A stretch of 64,000 bases of DNA from a virus, in IMG/VR virus record IMGVR_UViG_3300022848_000014, positions 1 to 64,000 of that record; one strand, 5' to 3'. Below the pieces are notes generated by a model that did not search any database, was not told the DNA's origin, and worked only from the letters and a program-made list of their open reading frames with translations. Every line of letters begins with the position of its first letter. The first letter of the stretch is position 1. Below, piece after piece: positions 39,112 through 62,000 of the stretch. The position numbers were made by a program, and so were the translations under genes.

Positions 39112-39203
39112 CATATTTCTCCGTAAGTACTCCGAAAGACGTTGCTCAACAGTCGCTTAATGCCATTCGAAGAGAACGGCACGAAGCTTAGTGTTAGCTG
39201 CAA
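39112..39203 (-). repeat. attC-like site S5, terminal; 92-bp inverted repeat copy 1
   Basis: Minus strand starts TTGCAGCTAAC (R''-like) and has an imperfect palindrome GCTTCGTGCC ... GGCATTAAGC, then GTTGAGC (39150-39144), a perfect GTTRRRY core. The 92 bp match 54776-54867 on the opposite strand with three mismatches. It marks the 3' end of the minus cassette array. Confidence 0.8.
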
Positions 39204-39206
39204 GTG

Positions 39207-40040
39207 CTACGTTCCAGTTTTAATTGAAAGTTCGTACATATCAGCCGTAATAATATTTTTTTCTCCCACCCTCTCTTTTGAGATTTGATACATATCAAAA
39301 TCATTTTCAATGCCAATGTAGTTTCTTTTTGTTTCAAAACAAGAAAGTCCAGTTGTATTACTTCCGCAAGTATTATCAAGAACCCAATCATTTTCATTTG
39401 AGTAGGTTTTAACAAGGTATTTAATCAACTCCAGTGGTTTTTGAGTTGGATGTAATGCTGATTTTTGTTTATCAGTAGCAAAACTCAAAACACTTTTCGG
39501 GTATCGTTCTGTACTATCATAAGTTGTAAGCCCATGTTCACCATAGTTAGTAGTCTTTTTAGAGTTTCTTTTATGCTTTGCTGTGCTTACCTTTCTTTCG
39601 TGTCCAGTAGTCTTTTGTGGGTTATACGTTGGTAATCTCTTGTAGAATACCAGTATGTCTTCGTGGCTTCTCAATGGCATTCTTTTAGCGTTTAAGTGTC
39701 CTGTTGGGGTTGTTTTTTGCCAAATTAGATTATATCTATGTAGCTTCTCATTTGAGAGCATCAACCTTGCAGAAAATTTATCCTGTCCGAAAAGAACTAT
39801 TGCCCCATTTTTAACTATTATTCTTTCGTATTGCTCCCAAAGTAAATTCAAATCAATGAGTGAATCCCATTTATTCTTAGTTACACCATAAGGTAAATCA
39901 CAACAAATTAGGTTTATGCTTTGGTCGGGTATTTGTTTCATCATCTGAAGGCAGTCTCCAAACCAAAGAATGTTTTTGGTTTTTTCAAAACCATCTTTGC
40001 CACCGCTCAAAAAAATATTATTACTACGTTCGTTTTTCAT
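39207..40040 (-). CDS. DNA methyltransferase, N6-adenine/N4-cytosine type
   Basis: A 277-aa protein. Motif IV is CDLPYG near residues 48-53 (variant of DPPY), motif I is VLDNTCGSNTTG near 219-230, and the segment ALHPTQKPLELIKYLVKTYS near 194-213 is typical of the beta class (IV before I). The first 13 residues (MKNERSNNIFLSG) are shared with the unrelated C5-methyltransferase of cassette M2 and lie outside the usual domain. It probably methylates phage DNA against restriction. Paralogue of 54069-54773. Confidence 0.85.
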   Translation of the reverse strand: MKNERSNNIFLSGGKDGFEKTKNILWFGDCLQMMKQIPDQSINLICCDLPYGVTKNKWDSLIDLNLLWEQYERIIVKNGAIVLFGQDKFSARLMLSNEKLHRYNLIWQKTTPTGHLNAKRMPLRSHEDILVFYKRLPTYNPQKTTGHERKVSTAKHKRNSKKTTNYGEHGLTTYDSTERYPKSVLSFATDKQKSALHPTQKPLELIKYLVKTYSNENDWVLDNTCGSNTTGLSCFETKRNYIGIENDFDMYQISKERVGEKNIITADMYELSIKTGT

Positions 40041-40072
40041 ATCAAAGTTTTGTGTTTAAAATCCGCACCAGT

Positions 40073-40170
40073 CAGCTAACATGGTATATAAAAAATAGCC
40101 TATTAAAGTTCGGTGTATAATATCAATGTTTGTGGTCAGGCTACTTTTCATATACCTGTCCGTTAGCAAC
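40073..40170 (-). other. attC-like site S4
   Basis: Minus strand begins GTTGCTAACGG and ends CCATGTTAGCTG; arms GGTATATGAAAAGTAGCC and GGCTATTTTTTATATACC pair imperfectly. 98 bp. The first core pairs with the start of cassette M3 (GTTAGCAAC). Confidence 0.75.
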
Positions 40171-40178
40171 AATAAAAA

Positions 40179-40355
40179 TTATTCCTCCCACCAGTAAAGC
40201 ACCTTAAAGAAGCTCTTTATCATTTCAGGAACATCCCATTCATCACCTAACCAAGTGCTTTCCCCTTCACCATTGTTACAAGAAGGTGCATTGTTTTTTA
40301 TTCTGTATTTACCAACAGAAGTTGGTTGTCTTTCGTTTGTGCTTACCCAAGCCAT
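40179..40355 (-). CDS. Small cassette protein, DUF551-like
   Basis: A 58-aa protein from the ATG at 40355 (MAWVSTNERQPTSVGKYRIK). A TTG start at 40376 in the same frame falls inside the attC-like core GTTAGCA and is rejected. The W-V/I-s-x-x-x-R-x-P start and the terminal VLYWWEE resemble DUF551 proteins of phages and mobile elements. Sole gene of the 294-bp cassette M3. Function unknown. Confidence 0.6.
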   Translation of the reverse strand: MAWVSTNERQPTSVGKYRIKNNAPSCNNGEGESTWLGDEWDVPEMIKSFFKVLYWWEE

Positions 40356-40365
40356 AATTTTAAAA

Positions 40366-40463
40366 GTTGCTAACAAAAGCTATAAATAAAAGCCTTGTTA
40401 AGGTTTGTGTGTGAATTGAACTTTGTGTTGAAGGCTTCAATTCATAGCCTAGTCATTACCTGC
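40366..40463 (-). other. attC-like site S3
   Basis: Minus strand begins GCAGGTAATG and ends TTTTGTTAGCAAC. Arms GGCTATGAATTGAAGCCTT and AAGGCTTTTATTTATAGC pair with a few bulges. 98 bp; separates cassettes M2 and M3. Confidence 0.75.
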
Positions 40464-40469
40464 AAGTGC

Positions 40470-41609
40470 TTAGACTTGTGCTAAACTTGAAGATTCGTGC
40501 TTATCATCCCGTAATAATATTTTTTTTCTCCCCTCTTTTGATTCTGCTAATATTAGAGCTTTGAATATTTGAAATGCAACCTGGGGTACAATTGCATTTC
40601 CGTATGCTTTTATTGATTCTTGTCGCCATTTAGGAAAGGTAATTCCGTCCAGTTGGTTGGAAATCCCATCATTTCCGCTACAAATTGGGGATTGAGTTGG
40701 CCATCTACCATCATAGTAAGTCCAACTTGCTTTCCTTTCTCCAAACGATTCAGAACGCATTTGTCCTTTGGGTTTCCCCTGTTCCTGTTGTCGCTTGCAT
40801 TCGGTGTCGGCAACATTCCTTTTTGATTCCACTTCGCTACCGTTTCTTCCAAATTCCCTTTGTTCCTGTTTGCTAATTTCTCGCTGTTTAGATTGCATCC
40901 GTTTACTTGGTTCGCTCTCGGTGTCGGTATTAATCCCTGAGATATTTGATGTGATAATGTTGTTTGAACTTTCGTTCCGTCTTTCCTGTACCAAGAGGTT
41001 TCCTTCCAAATCCAACCTTTTTCTTTTGCTCTCTCTGGCGTTATGTTCGCCATTGGATTTGCGCTCGGTGTTGATAGCAATAAACCAGACCCTATCTCTT
41101 CTATGGGGAGCGTTGACGGCAGCAGCTGGAAGTACACACGGTTGTACTTTGTACCCTTCATTTTCCAAGTCAGCTTGCACCTCGTTGAAAACCAATCCGT
41201 CATTCCAACTAATGAGACCAGAAACATTTTCTGCCACAACATATTTGGGTTTAATCTCTCGAATTGCTCTAAGCATTTCTGGCCAGAGGTGTCGGTCATC
41301 TTCTTTACCAAGTCTTTTACCTGCTGAGCTGTAAGGTTGGCAGGGGAATCCTCCTGTGAGGATGTCAATTTTTCCTCTGTGAATAGAGAAGTCTGTTTTG
41401 GTAATGTCTTCATAAGATATTGCTTTAGGCCAGTAATGTTTTAGTATTCGTTGACCAAATTCGTTCCATTCGCAATGAAATACGTTTTCCCACCCCATCC
41501 ATTCAGCAGCTAAATCAAAGCCACCAATTCCAGAGAACAGAGAACCGTGTTTTAGGCTATCGCCTAATTTGCCATCGCTCAAAAAAATATTATTACTACG
41601 TTCAGTCAT
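40470..41609 (-). CDS. dcm: DNA (cytosine-5) methyltransferase
   Basis: A 379-aa C5-methyltransferase with its motifs in order: LFSGIGGFDLAAEW near residues 23-36 (I), GGFPCQPYSSAG near 90-101 (IV, catalytic Cys), VVAENVSGL near 130-138 (VI), HRRDRVWFIA near 173-182 (VIII), and ESIKAYGNAIVPQVA near 338-352 (IX/X). Residues 185-300 are a low-complexity, charged target-recognition region that overlaps another reading frame (40610-41413). Sole resident of cassette M2. The first 14 residues match those of the M4 methyltransferase. Confidence 0.9.
   Translation of the reverse strand: MTERSNNIFLSDGKLGDSLKHGSLFSGIGGFDLAAEWMGWENVFHCEWNEFGQRILKHYWPKAISYEDITKTDFSIHRGKIDILTGGFPCQPYSSAGKRLGKEDDRHLWPEMLRAIREIKPKYVVAENVSGLISWNDGLVFNEVQADLENEGYKVQPCVLPAAAVNAPHRRDRVWFIAINTERKSNGEHNARESKRKRLDLEGNLLVQERRNESSNNIITSNISGINTDTESEPSKRMQSKQREISKQEQREFGRNGSEVESKRNVADTECKRQQEQGKPKGQMRSESFGERKASWTYYDGRWPTQSPICSGNDGISNQLDGITFPKWRQESIKAYGNAIVPQVAFQIFKALILAESKEGRKKILLRDDKHESSSLAQV
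40610..41413 (-). CDS. Overlapping gene nested in dcm (methyltransferase-associated family)
   Basis: A 267-aa frame wholly inside dcm on the same strand in another phase. It has normal composition and segments I recognise from a recurrent family near phage C5-methyltransferases: SLFTEEKLTSSQEDSPANLT, CKLTWKMKGTKYNRVYFQLL, MLPTPNASDNRNRG and LNPQFVAEMMGFPTNWTELPF. The dcm residues in the same DNA (VADTECKRQQ) are low complexity, as if constrained by this frame. Either both are translated or the frame is maintained as a by-product; I favour dual coding. Confidence 0.55.
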   Translation of the reverse strand: MKTLPKQTSLFTEEKLTSSQEDSPANLTAQQVKDLVKKMTDTSGQKCLEQFERLNPNMLWQKMFLVSLVGMTDWFSTRCKLTWKMKGTKYNRVYFQLLPSTLPIEEIGSGLLLSTPSANPMANITPERAKEKGWIWKETSWYRKDGTKVQTTLSHQISQGLIPTPRANQVNGCNLNSEKLANRNKGNLEETVAKWNQKGMLPTPNASDNRNRGNPKDKCVLNRLEKGKQVGLTMMVDGQLNPQFVAEMMGFPTNWTELPFLNGDKNQ

Positions 41610-41643
41610 TTAATTAAAGTTTGTGTTTATTAATCGCACCAGT

Positions 41644-41702
41644 CAGGTAACACGCTATAAAAGCCATTGAAAAAACGGCTCTTATAGCTATTCGTTAGGC
41701 AC
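41644..41702 (-). other. attC-like site S2
   Basis: Minus strand begins GTGCCTAACG and ends GCGTGTTACCTG. Arms AATAGCTATAAGAGCCG and GGCTTTTATAGCG pair. 59 bp, the shortest site. Its first core is the exact 9-bp complement of the start of cassette M1 (GTTAGGCAC). Confidence 0.8.
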
Positions 41703-41716
41703 AATTAAAACAAACT

Positions 41717-42550
41717 TTATTGCATATTAATTTCGCTCTCCGTTTCGCTTCTTTTATCTAAGTCGTTTATCCCACACATACCATTACAATCAAACAATGG
41801 TTTAGGCTCTCTACCTTTCATCATACTAATATCTTTCATTTGTGGGTAGTCTTTATGTGGTTTTAGAAATACTAATCCACCGCCTTTACTTTGGTCTTTC
41901 AACATAGTTATTGGCTTACCTTTAACATTTGTTAGTTCATGCTCCATCGCTGCCATTTTATCAAATTTATCAGGAAAGTCTCTACTCATTTTCTGCCAAT
42001 ATCCAATTCCACCTTGTACGCATCCAGTCTTAAAACAATTGTTATTTAAGAACCCTAATTGATACATATTTGGAACTTCAATACTTGCATCTTGTACAAT
42101 CTTAATACAATCCTTTTTATTCAATCCATGCATCATTAAAGGAAATAAAGGTTTTGTTTGTGGATGGTTTAAAACCATCCCTTTTGCTCTCTTATATTCG
42201 TCAAGTTCAAACCCAAAAATTTGATGTTTCCATTCATTAGTCTTTTCCCACGTTTCACGTACTTGCCTTTTCATTTCAGAACTACATACAGCACCCTTAG
42301 CATTGTTCAGTGCTTTGTATCTTCGCCAAACTGCTTGAACGCTTTCGTGCTTTGTACTACTTATAGTCTCAATCTCTATGCCATACCAATCGGCACAGTC
42401 TTTCATAAATCGGTAAGTATCATCGTCTTCATTATGTGTATCAATAAAAATAATTCTTACATTTTCTTTACCATACAAATCAATTCCAATTTTACAAGCT
42501 ACCGCACTTGTAATTCCACCACTCCACCAGCCAATTATCTTATATTTCAT
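41717..42550 (-). CDS. PP-loop ATPase, PAPS-reductase-like
   Basis: A 277-aa protein with the PP-loop WWSGGITSAVACK near residues 8-20 and IIFIDTHNEDDDTY near 33-46, as in phosphoadenosine phosphosulfate reductase and DndC relatives. Cysteine pairs follow (NNNCFKTGCVQGG near 170-182; CNGMCG near 255-260), suggesting a metal or Fe-S site. Phage members may take part in DNA or tRNA sulphur modification; substrate unknown. Its start overlaps the deoxyribosyltransferase-like gene by 4 nt (same cassette). Confidence 0.75.
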   Translation of the reverse strand: MKYKIIGWWSGGITSAVACKIGIDLYGKENVRIIFIDTHNEDDDTYRFMKDCADWYGIEIETISSTKHESVQAVWRRYKALNNAKGAVCSSEMKRQVRETWEKTNEWKHQIFGFELDEYKRAKGMVLNHPQTKPLFPLMMHGLNKKDCIKIVQDASIEVPNMYQLGFLNNNCFKTGCVQGGIGYWQKMSRDFPDKFDKMAAMEHELTNVKGKPITMLKDQSKGGGLVFLKPHKDYPQMKDISMMKGREPKPLFDCNGMCGINDLDKRSETESEINMQ

Positions 42551-42951
42551 ATTGCAAATGATTTTAAATATTCCACACCATCTTCTAATGTGTCAAAAAC
42601 AATATCAGAAACCTGTGTTACAAAGGATAAGTAATTATCTTTTATTGTTTCGTGATTTGGTTCAAGTACAGTTATAACCGTTTTACCCAATCCTTTAGCA
42701 TAACCAGCCTCACAACATAAACCAATACAGCTCGTGTTTGTTTTTTCAATATAAACAAATAGTATATCACTTTGCTTTATAAAATGCAAATCCCATTTTC
42801 CGTACTCATTCACATTCATAATAACCCTTTCGTTATTCTTAAACTCTTTATCTTTTGGGTTAATCCATTCAATATTATCAGAACATTCTTTTACTTTATT
42901 AGCCCAATCGCTCTTAAAACCACCAGCTAAATATGTTTTTTGTTTTATCAT
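42547..42951 (-). CDS. Nucleoside 2-deoxyribosyltransferase-like protein
   Basis: A 134-aa protein with YLAGGFKSDWANKV near residues 7-20, IEWINPKDKEF near 27-37, a conserved acidic strand SDILFVYIEKTNTSCIGLCC near 61-80, and EAGYAKGLGKTVITVLEP (the Glu is the usual nucleophile). It may alter nucleotide pools or make a modified base, together with the PP-loop protein in the same cassette. First gene of cassette M1. Confidence 0.75.
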   Translation of the reverse strand: MIKQKTYLAGGFKSDWANKVKECSDNIEWINPKDKEFKNNERVIMNVNEYGKWDLHFIKQSDILFVYIEKTNTSCIGLCCEAGYAKGLGKTVITVLEPNHETIKDNYLSFVTQVSDIVFDTLEDGVEYLKSFAI

Positions 42952-42985
42952 TGTATATATTTTTCATATTTTATAATTAATAACT

Positions 42986-43120
42986 GTGCCTAACACGGTA
43001 TAAAAATAATAGCGGTTTTAGGTCTTTATTTAAGGTTAGTAATATTTATTTAATTCTGTTCTTAATCGTTTGGTTCGTGCGTTTCAATCCGCTACTATTC
43101 TTATACAACACGTTACCAAC
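42986..43120 (-). other. attC-like site S1 (first site of array A)
   Basis: Minus strand begins GTTGGTAACGTG and ends CCGTGTTAGGCAC. Arms GTATAAGAATAGTAGCGG and CCGCTATTATTTTTATAC pair well around a long central part. 135 bp, the longest site. Its first core has no matching cassette start upstream, as expected where an array meets resident genes. Confidence 0.75.
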
Positions 43121-43128
43121 AATAAAAA

Positions 43129-43287
43129 TTACTCGTATTGGTCGCTGTCTTTTATCGTTTCAAGAGCACTAATCCTGTCTTGTAAAACTTTCTTCTCTCT
43201 CATTAATAACATTATATCTTCTTCCGCTTTTTTCAAATATAATTTAGTATCCTTTATTGCTGCATCAATTTTTGTCATTTTACTCAT
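43129..43287 (-). CDS. Small coiled-coil protein
   Basis: A 52-aa protein (MSKMTKIDAAIKDTKLYLKK ... LQDRISALETIKDSDQYE), heptad-rich. Its ATG overlaps the stop of the upstream lipoprotein-like gene and its stop lies 9 nt before attC-like site S1. It is the last resident gene before the cassette array. Confidence 0.5.
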   Translation of the reverse strand: MSKMTKIDAAIKDTKLYLKKAEEDIMLLMREKKVLQDRISALETIKDSDQYE

Positions 43288-43688: not shown

Positions 43689-44096
43689 TTATTGTTGTTT
43701 AATTTTACGTGGAAGCCTCAGGTACCATCTATTTCCTAAGGGCCTCATACTTTTAAGTTCAAAGACAAGAGCATCAATGAACTCTCTATCATACTTGTCT
43801 TTTTCTAACTTAAGACAATTCCTACGATTGAAAATAATATTTAAGTTTCGATCAAAGTACTGCCGAATTTGTGCTGAGGTAAACTTTCTCTTGTTTTTAT
43901 GTGGAAGCCTCAGGTACCATTTATTCCCTAGCACCCTGAAGGTTTGAACTCCATCAAAAAGAATGTCATTGTACACCTGCTCATAGGTGTATATTTCTAT
44001 TTTCTGACAATTACCACGATTGAAAATAAGATTTAAGTTTCGGTCGAAGTACTGCCGAATTTGTGTTTGGGAAAACTTTCTAAAATAATTTCTCAT
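43689..44096 (-). CDS. Protein made of two tandem repeats
   Basis: A 135-aa, very basic protein with an internal duplication of about 65 residues: residues 8-70 and 71-133 both read (T/A)QIRQYFDRNLN(L/I)IFNR ... LGN(K/R)WYLRLP. The DNA copies also remain similar (near 43712-43880 and 43897-44050), so the duplication looks fairly recent. Likely nucleic-acid binding by charge; no family known. Confidence 0.5.
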   Translation of the reverse strand: MRNYFRKFSQTQIRQYFDRNLNLIFNRGNCQKIEIYTYEQVYNDILFDGVQTFRVLGNKWYLRLPHKNKRKFTSAQIRQYFDRNLNIIFNRRNCLKLEKDKYDREFIDALVFELKSMRPLGNRWYLRLPRKIKQQ

Positions 44097-47392: not shown

Positions 47393-47770
47393 ATGGCAGA
47401 ACTATTTAACCGTAATAAAGTAGCATCTAAAGGATTGCACAATTACATCCAACGAATGCTTAAGGCAAAGGATAAACGCGAAGTCTTGAAATTATTGCGG
47501 GACTATGCGCCCATCACCAACAAAGCACAGCGACTTATCCTTGGGTTAAAGCCAAACTACTTTAATGTGTTCATGATGCAGAGGGTAGAATACTACACCA
47601 ATAAGCATGTGAGTGATGAAATGGTGATGTTAAGAGAAGTATTCGTTCCAGAATTATTGGAGCAAATCAAGGAGATAGCCGTTAAGGAAAATCGGAACGA
47701 AGAGAAGTTAGTCAAGAATTATATTTTAGGTAAAAACATAAAATCCAAACCGTATGTCAAAGAAAAATAG
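47393..47770 (+). CDS. Hypothetical helical protein upstream of groES
   Basis: A 125-aa basic helical protein (MAELFNRNKVASKGLHNYIQ...), overlapping the groES start by 17 nt. Residues 20-60 (MLKAKDKREVLKLLRDYAPI) are amphipathic. Unknown; co-expressed with the chaperonin pair. Confidence 0.5.
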   Translation: MAELFNRNKVASKGLHNYIQRMLKAKDKREVLKLLRDYAPITNKAQRLILGLKPNYFNVFMMQRVEYYTNKHVSDEMVMLREVFVPELLEQIKEIAVKENRNEEKLVKNYILGKNIKSKPYVKEK

Positions 47771-48047
47771 TGCAATTCCTGTTGGGGATAGAGTACTTGT
47801 AATCCCTGATCAAGCCCAGCAAGAGATGTTTGGGCTTATGATTCCCTCTCAAGCTCAAAAGAAAGTCCAGACTGGTAGAGTAATAGCTGTTGGTAAAGGG
47901 AAGGGCGAATTGGAAATGCAGACAAAGGCTGGGGATACAATTCTCTACAGTGACTTTGCTGGAACTGAAATCAAAATCGATGATGTTGTTCATATCATCA
48001 TGCGTGAAACCGATGTTTATTGCATCCTTAAAAATGAAGAAGTATGA
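47754..48047 (+). CDS. groES: Co-chaperonin GroES
   Basis: A 97-aa Cpn10: PVGDRVLVIPDQAQQ near residues 9-23, a mobile-loop segment EMFGLMIPSQAQKKV, TGRVIAVGKGKGEL, then KAGDTILYSDFAGTEIKIDD and MRETDVYCIL. The mobile loop keeps a hydrophobic GLMIP (usually GIVLP) for GroEL binding. Its stop overlaps the groEL ATG, so the pair is coupled. The two sit together as in bacteria, inside a phage operon. Confidence 0.9.
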   Translation: MSKKNSAIPVGDRVLVIPDQAQQEMFGLMIPSQAQKKVQTGRVIAVGKGKGELEMQTKAGDTILYSDFAGTEIKIDDVVHIIMRETDVYCILKNEEV

Positions 48048-49801
48048 GAAAAAAGTTAATTGAATTCGATAATGCCAAGGAAAAGATGGCTCTAGGGGCT
48101 AATAAACTGGCAAGGGCTGTTTCATGTACCCTGGGACCAAAAGGTAGGAACGTTGTGCTCTATCTTGAAGATGGCCGAATGCACACGACAAAAGATGGTG
48201 TGACTGTAGCACTCTTTACAAAGTTCTTTGATCAAATAGAAGATGCTGGTGCCACGTTCCTTCAGGATGCATCAAAGAAAACGGTTCACCAGTCAGGTGA
48301 TGGGACAACTACTTGTACACTCGTAGCCAATGCGCTCATCCAGCAAGGGGTGACATACCTCAAGGATAAGATGCACTCTGCTGTGGAGTACACAGATGGA
48401 ATTCAAAAAGCCTCTAGGAATCTAATCGAAGAGTTGGTGCAGGAGTCAATCGAAATCAATGGGGATTTAGATATGATTGAGAATGTTGCTAGGATAAGTG
48501 CCAACAACGATGCTGAACTAGGGAAAATCATCCGTGAAGCTATTGAGGCTGTGGGTTTAGATTCCATCATTCAGGCAGACGACAGTGGGGACAACACCAC
48601 TTCAGTTAAAGTAGTAGATGGAATGGAATTCCAAAATGGATTCAAGCACCCTTACTACATTAATGACCATAAGGGTCGGTGTGTGTTTGATGACAAGAGT
48701 GACAAGGTGAAAGTGATCATTATAGACAATGACCTTACGACACTGAAGCAAGTAATTATGATGATGAAGCATATTGGGGAGAACAACCTGAAGGCTGTCA
48801 TTGTATGCAATCAAATGATTGGTGAAGCAGATAGTGTAGCCCTTGTCAATGTCCAAAATAATGGGCTAAAGGTTTGTGTAGTCAATGCCCCAGGCATGGG
48901 GGACCGAAGACGGGCTTATCTCAGGGATTTAGGGATATTCACTGGTGCCACGGTAATCGGTGATGAAACGGGCACGGAGATCGAAAATTTCAAGCCAGAA
49001 TGGATGGGTACTTGTGAGAAGTTTGTGGCAGATGCTAAGACCTCCCGATTCATTATGGGGGGTAACGTTCCTGACGTTGTTCAGGGCGATATTGATTCTT
49101 TGAAATTAAAGATGGTTAAGCCTGGCCCAGAGAGTTCAATGGAAGCAAGGGCTAATTACACAAGGCAAAAGCAAGAAGTAAAGGATCTCTACGAAAAGAA
49201 GAAGTTGATTACAAATGAGATCGGAAGTATTGAGACTCAAATTGGTAATACAACAGATGCCTTTGCTATCAAGAAGCACAAAGAACGCATTCAGAGGCTC
49301 AAGGGTAAGGCTGCAATCATCTTAGTAGGGGCACAGACCACTCAAGAGCTTCGTCAAAAGAAAGATCGAGTAGATGATGCCATAAAAGCTACTCAAGCTT
49401 CAGTTGAGGAAGGAATCGTGCCTGGTGGTGGTGTCAGCTTCTATAATGCCATGAAAAGGGTAACGCTTAATGATCCTTATGCTGGTGATGAGACACCTGA
49501 GCAAATAGGTTACTACGCATTCCTAGATGTGATGTCTGAAGTTCTGATTAAGATTTGCGAAAATTCAGGGTATGACGTTGCCTCTACTATAGCAAAGATG
49601 GAAGCTCGGAAAGACATGCAATTTGGTCTTAACGCAAAGAGTGGTGAATTCTGCAACCTGATAGACGCAGGGATCATCAATCCTACTAAAGTTGATCGTG
49701 TAGCAATTGAAAACGCGACATCTTCAGCTTGCACAATGCTATTGTCGGAGTGTGTTATATACCCCGATCCTGAAGCATTTGAAGAGGTGCCCCAGCAATA
49801 A
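48044..49801 (+). CDS. groEL: Chaperonin GroEL
   Basis: A 585-aa Cpn60. ATP site: VSCTLGPKGRNVVLY near residues 26-40, TKDGVTVA near 50-57, and GDGTTTCT near 86-93 with the catalytic Asp. VPGGGVSFYNAMK near 461-473 is the second nucleotide loop. The apical domain is divergent (VRYE-type bacterial residues replaced) and residues 370-410 are charged helices. The C-terminus lacks the GGM tail. It should form a ring that folds phage proteins with the phage GroES. Confidence 0.92.
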   Translation: MRKKLIEFDNAKEKMALGANKLARAVSCTLGPKGRNVVLYLEDGRMHTTKDGVTVALFTKFFDQIEDAGATFLQDASKKTVHQSGDGTTTCTLVANALIQQGVTYLKDKMHSAVEYTDGIQKASRNLIEELVQESIEINGDLDMIENVARISANNDAELGKIIREAIEAVGLDSIIQADDSGDNTTSVKVVDGMEFQNGFKHPYYINDHKGRCVFDDKSDKVKVIIIDNDLTTLKQVIMMMKHIGENNLKAVIVCNQMIGEADSVALVNVQNNGLKVCVVNAPGMGDRRRAYLRDLGIFTGATVIGDETGTEIENFKPEWMGTCEKFVADAKTSRFIMGGNVPDVVQGDIDSLKLKMVKPGPESSMEARANYTRQKQEVKDLYEKKKLITNEIGSIETQIGNTTDAFAIKKHKERIQRLKGKAAIILVGAQTTQELRQKKDRVDDAIKATQASVEEGIVPGGGVSFYNAMKRVTLNDPYAGDETPEQIGYYAFLDVMSEVLIKICENSGYDVASTIAKMEARKDMQFGLNAKSGEFCNLIDAGIINPTKVDRVAIENATSSACTMLLSECVIYPDPEAFEEVPQQ

Positions 49802-53015: not shown

Positions 53016-53240
53016 ATGAAAAACAATAAAATTATAAGCAGTTTTAAATATTGGGCAATCACTAGAAAATGGTTGTGGCAAAGAGTCGTTTTTGATAATG
53101 GTGTTGTTGGCAGAAACTATCACAGATATGACCATATCTTGTATTCTTATTGTCAAGGAATGGGTGATAATGGAGAGTATGGAGGTATTAATACCGTAAT
53201 AAAATTACAAGTGGAATCATCTATGCGTAATTGTGCCTAA
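53016..53240 (+). CDS. Hypothetical protein ending in attC-like site
   Basis: A 74-aa protein (MKNNKIISSFKYWAITRKWL...). Its TAA stop is part of the attC-like core GCCTAAC at 53235-53241. It has no matching GTTAGGC start upstream, so either it is the last resident gene or a cassette whose 5' end was lost. Unknown function. Confidence 0.45.
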   Translation: MKNNKIISSFKYWAITRKWLWQRVVFDNGVVGRNYHRYDHILYSYCQGMGDNGEYGGINTVIKLQVESSMRNCA

Positions 53241-53298
53241 CGGTTTGTATATGAAATCGGCTGACGATAGGAAGCTGTTTTATATACCGTGTTAGCCA
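53233..53298 (+). other. attC-like site S6 (first site of array B)
   Basis: Begins GTGCCTAACGG (GCCTAAC fits RYYYAAC) and ends CCGTGTTAGCCA. Arms GGTTTGTATATGAAA and TTTTATATACC pair, with AGC/GCT inside. 66 bp. Confidence 0.8.
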
Positions 53299-53335
53299 TC
53301 TGGCTGTGGTAAATTAAGAACTAAAATTAAATAGA

Positions 53336-53980
53336 ATGAAAATATTAATAGCTTGTGAGGAGAGCCAAGAAGTTTGTAAGGCTTTCCGAGAAATAGGATT
53401 TGAGGCTTATAGTTGCGATATGCAAGAATGTAGTGGTGGTAAACCTGAATGGCATATTGTAGGTGATGCAGTTGTAGAAGCGTATAGTGGTAAATATGAC
53501 CTTATGATAGCGCACCCACCTTGCACTTATATTAGTAGAGCTGGTGCAAGATGGATGTACCCAACAGCAGGAAATTTAAGCCAAGAAAGATTTAATAAAG
53601 CAATGGAAGCGAAGGATTTGTTTATGAAATTATTGAACGCTCCTATACCTTATATTGCTGTTGAGAACCCAACATTGTTAAAAGTAGTTGGATTGCCTAA
53701 ACAAAGCCAAGCGGTGCAACCTTATGAATACGGACACCCTTATAGTAAAAGAACTCTGCTGTGGATTAAAAATTTACCACTATTAAGCCCAACCAAAATA
53801 GTAAGCGAATATAAGCCGTACTTACCAAGTAATACAGGGGGCAAAAAACGAGGGCAGAAATATCAATTTAAGAACATAAGCCAAAAGGAAAGCAGTAAAA
53901 CTTTTAGCGGAATTGCAAAAGCTATGGCTGAACAATGGGGAAACTTCATTAAAAGCGATAATGTAGCAGCTTGTGGCTAA
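53336..53980 (+). CDS. C5-methyltransferase-like DNA modification protein
   Basis: A 214-aa protein: MKILIACEESQEVCKAFREI at the start (SAM-site-like), MIAHPPCTYISRAGARWMYP near residues 62-81 with the PPC catalytic-loop motif, and YIAVENPTLL near 105-114 (ENP, like motif VI). It lacks the C-terminal target-recognition part of full C5-methyltransferases. Common in phages; methylation or hypermodification of cytosine is probable. The TAA stop lies in attC-like core GGCTAAC. Confidence 0.7.
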   Translation: MKILIACEESQEVCKAFREIGFEAYSCDMQECSGGKPEWHIVGDAVVEAYSGKYDLMIAHPPCTYISRAGARWMYPTAGNLSQERFNKAMEAKDLFMKLLNAPIPYIAVENPTLLKVVGLPKQSQAVQPYEYGHPYSKRTLLWIKNLPLLSPTKIVSEYKPYLPSNTGGKKRGQKYQFKNISQKESSKTFSGIAKAMAEQWGNFIKSDNVAACG

Positions 53981-54045
53981 CGTGTTGTATATGATTAAGC
54001 GATAGCGACCCTTTTTAGGGTTAATTATATACGGTGTTACCTGCA
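53972..54045 (+). other. attC-like site S7
   Basis: Begins TGTGGCTAACGTG and ends CGGTGTTACCTGCA. Arms GTATATGATTAA and TTAATTATATAC pair, with an inner GGGTT near the apex. About 74 bp. Confidence 0.8.
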
Positions 54046-54068
54046 GTACGGATTATTAAAAACGAAAT

Positions 54069-54773
54069 ATGAAAAGAAACAAAATATATTTAGGGGATTG
54101 TTTAGAGTTGATGCCTAAACACGTAGAAGATAAAAGCGTTGATATGATTTTTTGCGATTTACCTTATGGAACAACACAAAACAAATGGGATAGCGTTATA
54201 CCTTTTGAGCCACTTTGGGAACAATATAAGAGAGTTATAAAAGATAATGGAGCTATTGTGTTATTTGGCTCACAACCTTTTACAAGTGCTTTAATTATGA
54301 GTGAACCTAAAATGTTTAAATACTCTTGGTATTGGTTAAAAAATAGAGCTACTGGAGTTTTAAACTCTAAAAAACAACCGTTAAGAAATATTGAAGAAAT
54401 TTGTGTTTTTAATATAAAGAAATATAACCCACAAGGATTGATTGAGGTGAACCAACCAAGTAGAAACAGCAAGAAAGATTACGATAACTATGGGAAAGGA
54501 ACTAGTAAACAATACACTCAAAAATACACAAACTACCCAAAGCAATTGATTGAGTTTAATAGCGTGCAAAGAACAACGCACCCAACAGAAAAGCCATTAG
54601 ATTTAATTGAATATATGATTAAGACTTACACAAATGAAGGTGATTTGATACTTGATAATACTTGTGGAAGTGGAACAACTGGAAGAGGAGCGAAGAACTT
54701 AAACAGAGATTATATTATGATGGAGCAAGAAGAGAAGTATTATGACATTGCTTGTAAAAGACTACTAACTTAG
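54069..54773 (+). CDS. DNA methyltransferase, N6-adenine/N4-cytosine type
   Basis: A 234-aa beta-class methyltransferase: FCDLPYGTTQNKWDS near residues 30-44 (motif IV), RTTHPTEKPLDLIEYMIKTY near 174-193, and LDNTCGSGTTGRGAK near 200-214 (motif I). Paralogue of the enzyme at 39207-40040, which also terminates its array, but without the extra RSNNIFLS N-terminus. Probably protects phage DNA. Confidence 0.87.
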   Translation: MKRNKIYLGDCLELMPKHVEDKSVDMIFCDLPYGTTQNKWDSVIPFEPLWEQYKRVIKDNGAIVLFGSQPFTSALIMSEPKMFKYSWYWLKNRATGVLNSKKQPLRNIEEICVFNIKKYNPQGLIEVNQPSRNSKKDYDNYGKGTSKQYTQKYTNYPKQLIEFNSVQRTTHPTEKPLDLIEYMIKTYTNEGDLILDNTCGSGTTGRGAKNLNRDYIMMEQEEKYYDIACKRLLT

Positions 54774-54775
54774 TA

Positions 54776-54867
54776 TTGCAGGTAACACTAAGCTTCGTGC
54801 CGTTCTCTTCGAATGGCATTAAGCGACTGTTTAGCACCGTCTTTCGGAGTACTTACGGAGAAATATG
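54776..54867 (+). repeat. attC-like site S8, terminal; 92-bp inverted repeat copy 2
   Basis: Begins TTGCAGGTAAC, contains palindrome GCTTCGTGCC ... GGCATTAAGC, then GTTTAGC at 54829-54835, and 32 further bp shared with copy 1. 89 of 92 positions equal 39112-39203 on the other strand. Confidence 0.8.
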
Positions 54868-55641: not shown

Positions 55642-56000
55642 TGGAATTCTGGTTTTTCGGTTTTTCGTATTGTCTTAATATCATTCACAAACTCACTATC
55701 TAATCCTACCCCTTCACCATCTGGATCGGTGAAGTAGTCAGTGACTAATGGGAAGAACCTCTTAAGCATGTACCAAGCGCCCATTAAGACGATTGAGAAC
55801 ACACCGATACCCGCCAGAGACGACATTAGGTACCTCATTGATATTGCTGGCATTTCATCCGGGCCAAAAATGTACCCAAGGCCGTACAACCCCCCATATA
55901 CAATTCCAACCCACACTAGGATATTAATAACGTCTTTCCCCATTACCAGGGACCAAGCTTTCTTGATCAATTTAATTGATTTACTTTTTTGCATTTTCAT
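55557..56000 (-). CDS. Holin-like membrane protein
   Basis: A 147-aa protein with three hydrophobic segments: residues 24-46 (VINILVWVGIVYGGLYGLGY), 56-79 (YLMSSLAGIGVFSIVLMGAW) and 124-147 (PLFFLSIYAFFVLCAAAMIA), with a basic N-terminus. Located directly before and overlapping the lysin gene, as holins are. It would permeabilise the inner membrane. Confidence 0.65.
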   Translation of the reverse strand: MKMQKSKSIKLIKKAWSLVMGKDVINILVWVGIVYGGLYGLGYIFGPDEMPAISMRYLMSSLAGIGVFSIVLMGAWYMLKRFFPLVTDYFTDPDGEGVGLDSEFVNDIKTIRKTEKPEFQCFRRPLFFLSIYAFFVLCAAAMIAAIL

Positions 56001-59000
56001 CTTTCATTTTTTGAATTGATAAATCTCGTTTGGCTTTACGCTCTTCGTCTCTTATTTTTTTTGCTGCAGCTCTTTCTAGTGCAACTTTAACTCCAGGCCC
56101 CTTTTCAAGAGCTAGTTCCCATGTTTTCTGTGTAATGTCTACCTCATACTTTTTAGCCATCATATCCTCTAAAGCTTTTTGGGCTGTTCGATTAATTCCT
56201 GGCTTATCAGGATTAACCACTTCCTTAAGATATGAGTAGTGAACTAATTTTTGTTCTTTCTCAGTGATCCTTTCTTGTGGGATTTTCTCGATGTAGTTGT
56301 AGAGGGTCATTGTATATCGATAAGTCTCGTCGTCTAGGTCTTCAACAAACCTACGGACTAAAGGCATTTGGTTCACACTTCCCTCTTTATCAAAAGTAGC
56401 TATGCGAACTGCTTCTTGGGCTATACCCCCAAAAACCTCATTCATTATGTAGTCAAAAGTCTCTGGACTAATACTCACACCCATTTTGTCATAGAGTTGT
56501 TGGGCACCCTCTATGTAGGCTTCATTTGTACTTTTATGGTAAATCTCATGATCAGCCTTTCCAATAGTAAATTTCGGATAAATTGGACTCATCTTATAAT
56601 CTTTATTCATGGAGACCTCAGCACTTTGGGAAGCAAGTACTGGCAAAAAGGCACTTACCCAGTTAGCTTGGTTCCCACTCACAGGGTCAACCACCATTTG
56701 TACCGAATGCAATTGATTAAAGAAAGCTCTGGCTGGTGTGATCCTGCCAGATTGAAGGTCATAAGCAGCTTCACCCATTGACATAAATAGTCTTAGGAAA
56801 GAATAGGATTTCGGAATCTTGAAGGGCTTTGTTGGTTCAACTGGATTATAGATGTAAGTGTTCTGAGTCCAGTCCATCGGTGATTCGGTCATCATTTTTA
56901 GCTCATCCTCTTCATCCATCATGCTGTAGAGTAGCATTTTGTTTAGGTAGGCAAATGAGGCTGCTGCTGCCAGAGCTTTTCTACCAGACTTTGACTTGAG
57001 TAATTGCCCAGTCTTGGCCACACCCTGTATTCCTGCATTAAGGAAAAGGTACATGCTATTGAGAATAGTCATTTGAGACCCTTTTTTCTCAAAGTTTAGG
57101 GATATGTTTTTAGCGGCTCCCGCAGCCTGTTGTGGGGATAACCCTGCATCCCTGAGTGATGCATATACGGCTAGTCTGTTGGACATCTCAAAAACCTCAT
57201 TGATTCCTAAGGCTGTGTCCATCATGGCGTGAAGCGTCTCTTTGGCCATGTTTGTCCCTTTGTTTGCTTTAGACTTCTCACCAAGTTTTTTTAAGCTGTC
57301 AACCTGATCTTGTATCTGGCCATAGTTAGCCCATGACATGTACATCCCTTCAGCCCTTGCCTCACTCAGATATTGCATCATGTCACCCCCTTGGTCTGTG
57401 GCACCAAAGTAGTTTTTAGCAATTGTGGGTCCAGCAATACGAAGGTTTGCTAGATATGCACGTCGAATTCCCTTTAAGTCATATCGATCTTTTTCCACTC
57501 CTAAGTTTGCAAGGACATCCTGTGTATCACGAGCAAAGTTGGGAACACCAAAGAATATGTTAAGGGATGTTATGAGAGACCGTTGGAAATTAGTCATTGC
57601 CCCAAAACCTTTGATAATTTTGCCCTCCCACTTTCCTGTCTTTCGATTACTTGGGATAAGCGCATTATAGAGTCCTTCATGCCTAACCTCAAGATAAACG
57701 ATTTTACCCCCGGGCATACGAACCTTTACTGAGTTCGTTTTCACATTGTCAGGAACAAGGTCATTGTAAGAGATTATGTCTCCCGTATCTGGATCGATGT
57801 CAGGTATTCCTCTTGCGGTATGCACTTTCCATACTGAAGGATCGGCATTTTGACGAGCAAGTTCCACGAGCGCTCTATTGGCATTATTCTTCTCTACTTT
57901 CTCAATGGTTTTGGCCAGGTTTACTACCGCTTGATTTAATGGGTCATAGACTTGCTCTGAAGTATATGAGCCCCTTCCTTCAGCGGCCAGGATGTCAGGA
58001 GAAGTGCTACCACCTTTTTTCTTTGACTTTGAGTTAAAGAATGCAGGGTCAATAACAACGGGCATGTAGTTTGACCATTCAATATCTGATCCTGTTTTAT
58101 CCCCATTTAGTAGGGCTTGGTATTGCTTTTCGTCGATGAAATCGTTTTCATAGAGTATATCAAGATTCTTTTCCAAAACTTCCTCCCTGAATTCTTGGGC
58201 AAACTCATCTAGGTCTTTACGCTTTCCATCATAGCTATCTAATATGGCCTGTGCGTCTTTATCGCTCATTCTGGCTCCTTCCTCTACAATTCGATATAAT
58301 TCCACCTCATTGTTCTCGATAGCCTCAATTTGGGCAGCGTAGAACTGTTGTCCTCTTGTGGTTTCAGCATTTTCCATCTTAGCAGTTAGTTGAGCAACTT
58401 TTTCTTCCTGCTTCTTGATTGACATATCCCTGAGTCTTGCATTACGCTCAGGAACGTGAAGGGCGTACATGAATTGGGAAAGGTCTGTGAGTGTTAATCC
58501 CTTCTTTTTCATTCTTCCATTAAGGGAAGCTTTGTTCTGCTTTCTCTTTTCAAATACGGTGCTTCTGCCTGATATTTGGAAAGTGGTACCAGGGTCCGCG
58601 CCATAAATATAGGTCTTGAGTGCATCGATTTGTTCTGCAGTCTTTGATCTAACAAGCTCTCGTTTCGTGTAAGCATTAAGTGCGTCTGGTAAGTTTTTAC
58701 CCTTAAGCTTCTCGATAGACTGTTGAATTTTCTTAAGCCATATATCCCCATCTTGGAAAGCTTGCCTGAAGCTGGTAAACGTTTCAAAGCCTTCTGTTTT
58801 AGATAGGGGTATTGTCATGCCAGATTCATTCAGAAAATCAATTTCCCTTTGAACCCTTCCCATTAGGACATCGGCCAATTTCTCATCCATGCCTAGTTTA
58901 TCTACGACAAACCTCGTGATTGCTGCAGGGTCAGCGCCTCCTTGCATGGCCATTACGATTGAAGCTCGAATCTTCATGAAGTCCCTTGACATGTTGACTG

Positions 59001-62000
59001 TCATAAACTCCTTGTAAAGGTTCTCATTACGAAGCTTACCATCAAACATTGCTCTCAAGTGAGGGGAAAGCGCCTGATTCATGGTAAGCTCTTCAGCCAC
59101 TTTTTGGGTAAATCCCTCTAGTGTCAAGTTCTCAATTTCCTTGGCATTCAATTTACCAGACCACATACCAGAGGCTATGAGGGGCTTAGTAAATTGATTG
59201 AATGCTGTGCTTAAGAACTTGCGAAATTTCTTTCTGAAGTTGTCGGGCTGCTTATCAACCTCTAAAGCTTTATCGGCTATGGCATCAGTCAACGCATCTA
59301 AGTATGGGTTCCTAGACTTCCTTTTTTTGGCTTCTGCCAAATACTTTGTGCCTTCCATCATTTCCTTCACTTGATGAAGTAACTCAGGTCGGTTTTGCAT
59401 TGCTGGGAGTATCCATGCTTTTGCAAAAGTCTTGAAAGTTTCCTTTGGGGTGATTGTGGCAGGATTGAAGTAGATGTTCCCATCCATGCTCACAATTACT
59501 TGTTGCCCCGCATATTCATCTCCGAGTGCTTCAACTTGCTCTTTGAATTCTGAGAAGTCAAATGAAACTTTTAGTCCAGGGAATGCTTTACCCAGTGCAG
59601 TTGCAATCTTGGACGCATATCTGGTATTGGCCTCAGTTGACTCTTGCGTGTCTGGGAGTGTTACCGATTGCATATCGATACCTTCGAAAGCCTGTATAAC
59701 TTGATCCCCCAATAGATCCCCAAAAGTCATCACGGCCATTGCCTCTGCACCGTTGTATCCTTCAGCTTCTAAAGCCGCAATGATTTCCTCATTAGTAAAC
59801 CCTTGTGATTGCAGCAATTCTATAATGGCCTTAATCTCTGCGTGTTCATTAAATCCTACTTGGAAGAGGGGTTTGCTCTCAGCCTCGACTTTATCAATTT
59901 CAACATTACGATCATCAAATACGACATAATTTGCGTCGGTGTATTCCTTATTCCGTGGTTTTGGTATACCCATGGAGAGTGTTCCAACAGGATAGCGGAT
60001 GCCATCGATTCCTTTATGGGTCAACCTCATTGATGCTTGTTGTGGACTCATGTATTTAGTGAGCGTAAAATACAAGAAAGCTCCACTAAAGAGATCCGCA
60101 TCAGTTAAGAGCTCGACTAATTTATCAGTGTCATTATCAAGATCGTATTGCTCGTTAAAATGCTCCATGAGCACCTCATGTAAATCTGGTTCAGCAGCGT
60201 ATGTTTTCCCATCATTTGTGTCAAAATAAATTTCGTAACCTAGTGCCTCATAATCACCTTGCTCTGAATTGCTTACATCAACAGCTACACTGTTTGGGTC
60301 TGGTACTTCTAATATTCTACGAAGTTGATCTTCTGGCAGTGCGTTTTTCCATTCTAGGTACTCGTATTCACTTGGTTCTTTCCCTTTATGAATGGTAGTA
60401 TGATAAACTTGGCCACCACCAATTGTCCATGGCTTAACCTCTCCGCTTTTTATTAGTGGAACAATTTTGGCAAAGGCAGCAGCTTTTTTATGTGTGGAGC
60501 TTTCTTTATTTGGATCATTCTTAGCCCCTTCAGCCCACTTCTTCTCAAAGTATTCTGCCCTCTTAATGTAATCGGCCTTGAGTCTAGGGGATGCATTCAT
60601 GAGGTTTGATTCAAACACCTGATCTAAAGCCTCTCTCTCGTTATAATCAAAATCTAAAGGATCTCCGTCTTTTGATTTGATTTCCCAATTTTTAGTGTCT
60701 TGAATTTTTCGTGAGAGTGTTGTAGCATAATCCTGGGCTATTTCTTTTTTACTTGTGAAATAGAGGCCATAGCCAAAAGCTTGAGCACCCTCACCAGTCC
60801 CAATCTTATCTGAGTTGAACTTATCAAATAAAAATGGTGTTCCGTGATATGCTCTGACTTCTTGGCTGGTCCCTTGATTTCCAAAAAGGATTATTTGTTC
60901 TTCTCTTGATATTGGTGATCCATCCCCATAATTTTCAGTCGCAGATGGTGGGGTTTCCTTTCGTTGTCGAGGACTCATTGCAGCCCTGTTCTGTACGTTT
61001 CTAGCCTCAGTCTCTCCCGCTAGTGATTGGTATAGCTTGTGAGCCACATCACTAGGGACTCTTTTAGAAATTATTGCTGTTTTCTCTGAGGTTAATTCTT
61101 CGGATTTGAGTGTTTCAATTTCAGCTAGTAAAAAATCACGTCTACCATCAAGTGTTTCTAAAGCTTCTTGTAACACTAAACTTACGGGCTTACCTAAGTT
61201 CGCATCTTCGCTCTGAGAACTGAAATACATTAATTCAGTTGATGCATCATAGGAGCCTAATTTCTCAGTCCCAAAGTTACCTTGTATAAGAGCATTAAGA
61301 TTGTCTTTAGCTACCCTTTCCTCTCTTTGAAGTTTCTGAATTTCATCCGTTAAATATCCATTTTCATCAGGTCTTTCTTTTTTATTCAGGTCATACAGTT
61401 CTTCTGTCTCTTTCTTTTTTTGCCTAAAAAGAAGTGTCAGATCAGAAAGTTCATTTCTAAACGCTTCATCAGTCTGAAATTTATTAAGAACATCCTGAGT
61501 AACCTTTTTGCTATCAGATACATCTAGCAGGTCTTTTCTGGTTGCAGTGATTGCAGACGTAGAAAGTTCATTTTGCTTGCTTGCAGGTAGAGATGCTATG
61601 ACTGATTGTGGATTGCCTCCCATAGCAAAACCTTCAATCATTTGAATAGCGTGTTGCAGTTCGTGTATGAAGGTCGATCCCTTGTCTTGAGCGTATGGAG
61701 TTACTTGAAGCACTTTTGTTTCAGAGTTGTAAGACCCCTGAAGCCCCCCGAAATCCATGAAGCCACCTTTTTTTGATATTTTAATATCAAGAAGAGCTGG
61801 GTAAAGCTTGAATATTTCTTCGTATGGACTAATGACTTCGGTTATTGAAACTGTTTCAGTACCAAAAAGTTTCTGTGTAGCGAGAGCTTCAAACGCTTCA
61901 GTATTGAACATTGGTGGTTGTACTTCATACTTCCACTTTCCGTCAGTACCTCTTGCCCATCCTGTTAATCCACGAATGTATTCTGCACCATCTTTAATTC

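Follow-up and report, generated by a model that had tools for sequence, protein, structure and literature searches.

Positions 1 to 64,000 of the 73.7-kb IMG/VR virus record IMGVR_UViG_3300022848_000014, hereafter called the window, carry two small arrays of gene cassettes of the integron type, the genes being mostly those of DNA-modifying enzymes. In the first, on the minus strand from 43,120 to 39,112, four gene units are arranged with imperfect palindromes between them (Table 1). The cargo of cassette C1 matches the Pfam families PF15891 (E-value 1e-9) and PF01507 (3e-6) as well as phrog_424 (2e-49); the small open reading frame (ORF) of cassette C3 was assigned to no family by family searches, and the C3 cassette frame is shared with gp035 of Cellulophaga phage phi18:3. 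When phage records were searched for distantly similar DNA, sequence resembling the first palindrome, S1, turned up in Polaribacter phage P12002S and in phi18:3. The second array, on the plus strand, comprises cassettes A and B; a Pfam search with the 214-amino-acid (aa) ORF of cassette A gave no match.

The initial annotation had described a single array, that at 39.1-43.1 kb. Its positions for the palindromes S1-S5 and for the cassette ends are correct on rereading the sequence, the cassette array is real and its interpretation is supported; the polarity of the cassettes, the nature of S5 and the assumed rarity of such arrays in phages had to be corrected, and the array on the other strand (53,236-54,867) had been missed.

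Cassette ends, attC sites and terminal blocks

Each cassette of the window begins with the reverse complement of its own far end: GTTAGGCACA in C1 (10 nucleotides, nt), TTACCTG in C2 (7 nt), GTTAGCAAC in C3 (9 nt; 19/24 overall) and GTTAGCTG in C4 (8 nt), with matches of 8 and 10 nt for cassettes A and B. Own-end pairing scores 35/42 over the six cassettes, which is matched by only 2 of 720 permutations, and the two ends of one and the same site agree at only 1-4 of 7 positions. This relation, already noted in the initial annotation, thus stands, albeit with a shorter match for C2, which is limited to TTACCTG because the C2 end is AAT, not AAC. It extends to other viruses: 118 stretches of viral contigs match a degenerate two-arm attC pattern, derived from the S1-like sites read in P12002S and phi18:3, and stems are strong in 69 of the 92 distinct sites. 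An own-end 8-mer lies within 1.5 kb of 40 of the 61 strong-stem sites with enough downstream sequence, as compared to 9% of control GTT[AG] k-mers.

From 51 sites of other viral contigs, a covariance model was built (A1, R1). Of its 21 base pairs, 12 show compensatory changes; the spacers close to the ends are unpaired, and most sequences have G-U at two positions. These mismatch positions are proposed to act as extrahelical bases. In its structure and covariation R1 thus displays the folded attC, unpaired spacer, mismatched bases and variable loop of integron cassette sites. The model matches S1, S4, S6, S2 and S3 in a search of the whole record and S7 in a 3-kb search; S4 scores 56.5 bits on the gene strand and 24.2 on the other. 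The covariance-model search for which the initial annotation had called accordingly recovers S1-S4, using R1 rather than the IntegronFinder/HattCI models. Since S1 shaped the pattern behind the R1 sites, its match is not fully independent, whereas the other window sites were unused. Folding of single sites is uneven: compared with shuffled sequences, S2 and S4 fold better, S3 and S5-S8 modestly so and S1 no better, and folding energies alone are therefore unconvincing.

Simpler site finders performed poorly. A strict RYYYAAC/GTTRRRY scan was abandoned, since GTTACC or GTTAGC is the core at many of these sites, and a loose AAC..GTT stem scan brought out only S1 and S4 prominently, which is why the covariance model was used. 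Searches with default filters missed true sites in short input (locus L010); both window arrays were searched again with the filters disabled, and the attC counts for viral loci and bacterial genomes given here are lower bounds. At least 139 R1 matches were found in 52 viral loci, which had been preselected for at least one site, a few of the matches being the opposite strand of the same site. With phage arrays published previously (PMC9892861), this does away with the notion that in this niche they are at best rare.

S1-S4 lie within 3.1 kb and S6 and S7 within 0.8 kb, that is, at least two attCs close together in each case, and no match to the tyrosine recombinase family PF00589 was found in the 73.7-kb record, which may be incomplete. 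The arrays of the window are clusters of attC sites lacking an integrase (CALINs), and the absence of an integrase claimed for the first array is borne out.

S5 proved to be a different element. Neither S5 nor its counterpart S8, at 54.78 kb, matches R1 even with filters off, and its reading as an attC-like cassette site was discarded. The two are copies of one ~84-nt block, identical from AAC to ATATG save for two positions near the second core, and the sequence on both sides of the copies is unrelated between the arrays. With S5 and S8 set apart as blocks, array 1 consists of four cassettes with four attCs and array 2 of two with two, the numbers that an acceptor with cassettes behind it would give; the terminal block is probably such an acceptor, comparable to attI.

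Table 1. Elements of the two arrays and the adjoining ORF. R1 values are scores or E-values (E) with the covariance model; "region" denotes the 4.4-kb region and "record" the whole record.
Feature	Position	Strand	Properties
ORF immediately before S1	43129..43287	-	52-aa phage ORF; its 3' end resembles cassette ends
attC S1	42988..43117	-	R1 92 bits, E 3e-19 (4.4-kb search, filters off); 5e-18 (record)
S1/C1 unit	41697-43114	-	
Cassette C1 cargo	41717..42951	-	134-aa nucleoside deoxyribosyltransferase-like and 277-aa PAPS-reductase-like ORFs
attC S2	41645..41699	-	R1 E 3e-4 (region), 0.006 (record); DNA fold z -4.1
Cassette C2 cargo	40470..41609	-	C5 cytosine methyltransferase, 379 aa; PF00145 5e-51
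attC S3, degenerate (AAT replaces AAC)	40368..40460	-	R1 E 1e-3 (region), 0.02 (record)
Cassette C3 cargo	40179..40376	-	small ORF; 65 aa with TTG as start codon, fewer with ATG
attC S4	40074..40167	-	R1 E 3e-11 (region), 5e-10 (record); DNA fold z -4.2
Cassette C4 cargo	39207..40040	-	N4/N6 DNA methyltransferase, 277 aa; PF01555 2e-27
Terminal block of array 1 (S5), proposed acceptor	39112..39195	-	near-copy of 54784-54867
attC S6, first site of array 2	53236..53297	+	R1 47.8 bits, E 4e-8 (record); other strand 7.4 bits
Cassette A cargo	53336..53980	+	214-aa ORF; 40% identity with an ORF in L091, a phage-array locus
attC S7	53976..54042	+	R1 39.1 bits, E 1.5e-7 (3-kb search); other strand 8.8 bits
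Cassette B cargo	54069..54773	+	N4/N6 DNA methyltransferase, 234 aa; PF01555 8e-31
Terminal block of array 2 (S8)	54784..54867	+	copy of the array 1 block

Inverted genes in phages and arrays in host chromosomes

Own-end complementarity is symmetric and gives no polarity, which is instead provided by the strand of the model match. In host arrays, the site read in gene sense is AACA..CGTT, the same as in the aadA1 attC, which served as yardstick and was located at aadA in records of plasmids; phage sites are AACG..TGTT, the reverse complement. When both groups were counted with the same pattern and frame, strands being taken from the longest ORF and unclear cases excluded, the genes flanking viral sites ran with the model by 54:4 on the upstream and 41:12 on the downstream side, and those flanking bacterial sites against it by 120:23 and 164:6. 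In the window, genes and model matches share a strand in both arrays. The genes of phage arrays thus point opposite to those of host arrays relative to attC, and an attC at the 3' end of its gene in the same polarity is not the arrangement found: the two are opposed in both window arrays and at most viral sites. Because the sites are inverted with respect to chromosomal arrays and aadA1, each gene belongs by attC polarity with the attC upstream of it, not, as originally supposed, with one at its 3' end.

Start codons within attC sites fit this assignment. Of 74 viral sites, 20 have an ATG within the attC from which a reading frame extends across the 3' arm (5 of 201 in bacteria, by the same count), and otherwise different viral proteins share an N-terminal LYT(L/V)L derived from the attC arm, a motif seen in about two bacterial cases. 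Such genes stay intact when the site is cut at the AAC arm, which is in keeping with a phage cassette unit that would consist of an attC and the gene downstream of it. Starts in the attC loop and the shared LYT(L/V)L occur in small phage proteins of L067, L086, L045, L047, L115 and other viral loci. In P12002L (L009) and phi13:2 (L011) there are runs of small ORFs, many straddling the GTT core in frame, which look like an N-terminal module from the site loop joined to exchangeable C-terminal parts. The gene contents of the two groups scarcely overlap: for 25 of 170 viral array ORFs homologues exist in other viral arrays and for 3 of 170 in host arrays. The opposite direction of the genes suggests that viruses maintain a pool of exchangeable genes of their own.

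The same attC family is widespread in Flavobacteriaceae genomes. The pattern was found in at least 117 stretches of bacterial genomes and, among the matches listed, nearly all belong to Flavobacteriaceae or other Bacteroidota. It also occurs in contigs labelled Paenisporosarcina (L152), Methylophaga metagenome-assembled genome (MAG; L167) and Deltaproteobacteria MAG (L189). None of 48 genomes with the attC pattern encodes an integron integrase above the TIGR02249 cut-off, and all 48 encode recombinases that match parts of this model. Most of the best matches are ~380-400-aa ORFs covering model positions 2-179 and 240-314, several of them near contig ends. The recombinase of one host (L257) passes the cut-off of NF040815 (241 versus 220 bits) and falls below that of TIGR02249 (210 versus 265 bits); the closest solved relatives of the host protein are 4a8e (XerC-like/XerA) and 2a3v (IntI4).

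Across 199 genomes of the family, recombinase and arrays are associated. A strong recombinase match, defined by a dividing line of E about 1e-45 between two score groups, is present in 91 and absent from 17 genomes with at least five attC matches, and present in 34 and absent from 57 of the others (Fisher test, 1e-11, a value that ignores relatedness, genome size and completeness). Among the places listed, reading by hand located recombinase and array within ~25 kb of each other in 24; in 21 of them the 3' end of the recombinase gene faces the array and the gene runs in the cassette direction. In L216 and L263, the G|TT of the first cassette is situated ~30-50 nt past the recombinase stop, with 10-nt own-end complementarity, forming a putative attI-like start, and in L262 (Cellulophaga baltica) GTTGGGCG is found downstream of the recombinase. 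Upstream of the recombinase and divergent from it in two hosts (L257/L216 and L262), there is a conserved small cysteine-containing protein (MRLQHECLYCKKELVGRTDKKYC...), for which a Pfam search gave no match.

Cassette turnover and its possible agents

Cassette differences between sister phages are natural cassette turnover, as judged from sequence alignments. The Cellulophaga phages phi18:3, phi13:2, phi19:3 and phi46:3 have a common flank of at least 99% identity, the alignment of which begins within two bases of AAC, and the preceding cassette is different in all four. Similarly, the Polaribacter phages P12002S and P12002L share ~70 nt from AACAACGG, and the cassettes before it differ. These breaks coincide with the expected G|TT cleavage point, the AAC triplet.

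The reading that we favour, with a probability of about 0.68, is that the window bears two integrase-less arrays whose attC family is common to Flavobacteriaceae chromosomes and whose cassettes would be added and removed by a host recombinase. An array would consist of a fixed terminal block, serving as attI-like acceptor, and a series of cassettes behind it, each closed by one attC when read in attC polarity, the last attC of each array joining ordinary phage DNA. The host, probably a marine bacterium of the Flavobacteria type, would supply a tyrosine recombinase, most likely the ~380-aa XerA/IntI-like protein heading the chromosomal arrays; we infer that it moves phage cassettes as well. Acting on the folded attC at G|TT (AAC on the coding strand), it would bring about gain and loss of cassettes. 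With the phage gene opposing attC polarity, the attC that moves with a gene would be the one upstream of it, sometimes containing its start. Inverted cassette genes would then run with the phage operon, and host cassettes of normal polarity would enter in antisense. The cargo, DNA methyltransferases along with PAPS-reductase-like and deoxyribosyltransferase-like proteins, fits swappable DNA modification, and may act against host restriction.

Several points weigh against this reading. Searches with backbone proteins of the window phage revealed no relative of its backbone; they retrieved only contig 3300023231_000782, which belongs to the same virus (15.9 kb at 100% identity), so that the evidence for turnover comes from other phage lineages. 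The mobility of the cassettes is presumed from the comparison of sister phages. To the shortcomings of the Fisher value are added the 17 genomes with at least five attC matches that have no strong recombinase match, and in 3 of the 24 places (G127, G227 and G267) the recombinase is divergent, as in classical integrons. Finally, flank conservation, which might tell the side that travels with attC, offers few informative pairs in viruses and is mixed in bacteria.

A different mover is conceivable: a recombinase encoded by phages or elsewhere, or homologous recombination between similar attCs, rather than the host XerA/IntI-like enzyme. Cellulophaga phages, phi18:3 among them, (L010, L011, L269 and L270) encode a tyrosine recombinase of ~420-428 aa just past the array and the conserved flank, and near-identical attC bodies with different flanks could seed homologous exchange. 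However, that protein matches Phage_integrase and only weakly the XerD, Xer and IntI models, a tyrosine recombinase is missing from the window phage, the integron-integrase model finds nothing in P12002S or P12002L, and exchange ends sharply at AAC with differing sequence adjoining; another mover is considered improbable. Among 49 viral and phage records no classical IntI exceeds the cut-off, and weaker Xer- or phage-integrase-like matches occur in 7. Also unlikely is a dead CALIN: a host integron fragment that entered the phage on a single occasion, through illegitimate or homologous recombination, and has been immobile there since. CALINs are often regarded as degraded integrons (PMC9024848), the phage has no recombinase and the S3 end is degenerate (AAT), but genes opposite to those of host arrays do not look like a copied host segment, hardly any viral cassette genes occur in host arrays, sister phages differ in their cassettes with breaks at AAC, and one terminal block is common to the two window arrays. 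Transcription terminators or RNA-processing hairpins, with the shared ends as by-products, would account for hairpins that follow stop codons and for the two conserved odd positions, which are G-U in phage gene sense and thus give a well-paired RNA hairpin. They leave unexplained the match of each cassette start to its own far end, the sharp exchange at AAC and the presence of such sites next to a recombinase gene in the chromosomes of hosts; on these grounds a terminator-only reading was rejected as highly improbable.

Apart from the arrays, the window contains two adjoining ~150-nt stretches at 43703-44045 that are 73% alike, an internal repeat within or beside a 135-aa ORF (43689-44096). 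Between both arrays, ORFs of 97 and 585 aa (47754-49801) appear GroES- and GroEL-like by eye from the translation, and a single ORF of 2515 aa occupies 55981-63528 on the minus strand.

Relation to known integrons and implications

CALINs in phages are already known. Qi et al. (2023) reported 17, among them that of P12002L with two methyltransferases, found them in virulent phages and showed that IntI1 was active in recombination on five of the six phage attCs tested (PMC9892861). Like the window arrays, P12002L-type CALINs are attC clusters without integrase, with methyltransferase cargo and flavobacterial hosts; attCs of divergent direction are noted in that paper, yet it reports no systematic reversal of the genes with respect to attC, nor a terminal block, turnover between sister phages or a flavobacterial integrase (PMC9892861). 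In Bacteroidetes proper, IntegronFinder 2.0 identified one complete integron, in Salinibacter ruber (PMC9024848). The host arrays resemble the sedentary chromosomal integrons of the Vibrio type in having a putative attI-like start, one attC per cassette, own-end complementarity and a candidate integrase beside the array. In contrast to Vibrio-type IntI, the host recombinase is below the cut-off, lacks the IntI-specific stretch (model positions 180-238) and mostly runs in the direction of the cassettes, and the phage arrays differ from these integrons in having no integrase and opposite gene polarity. The host protein passes the cut-off of the XerA type (NF040815, "site-specific tyrosine recombinase/integron integrase"), but has ~100 extra N-terminal residues and is linked to attC arrays. 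The Flavobacteriaceae arrays, their recombinase, the inverted phage cassettes and the terminal block are undescribed in the literature searched, which excludes most subscription journals and is therefore weak evidence of novelty. What is new in the window arrays, the phage CALIN as such being known, is the polarity, the terminal block and the probable host partner.

On balance, we lean slightly towards the broader view that Flavobacteriaceae have a chromosomal integron class of their own, with a XerA-like integrase missed by standard searches, and that a separate, inverted phage pool exists alongside it, with a phage-owned acceptor block and the attC as a 5' leader that is sometimes N-terminal coding sequence. 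A candidate integrase and a host reservoir can now be named for the integrase-less arrays of phages, and a large marine bacterial family is suggested to have integrons that standard tools have overlooked. The opposite gene polarity offers a possible simple reason for the separation of the phage and host cassette pools despite their use of the same sites. If phages do swap DNA methyltransferases via host recombination, this would constitute a testable route to evade restriction.

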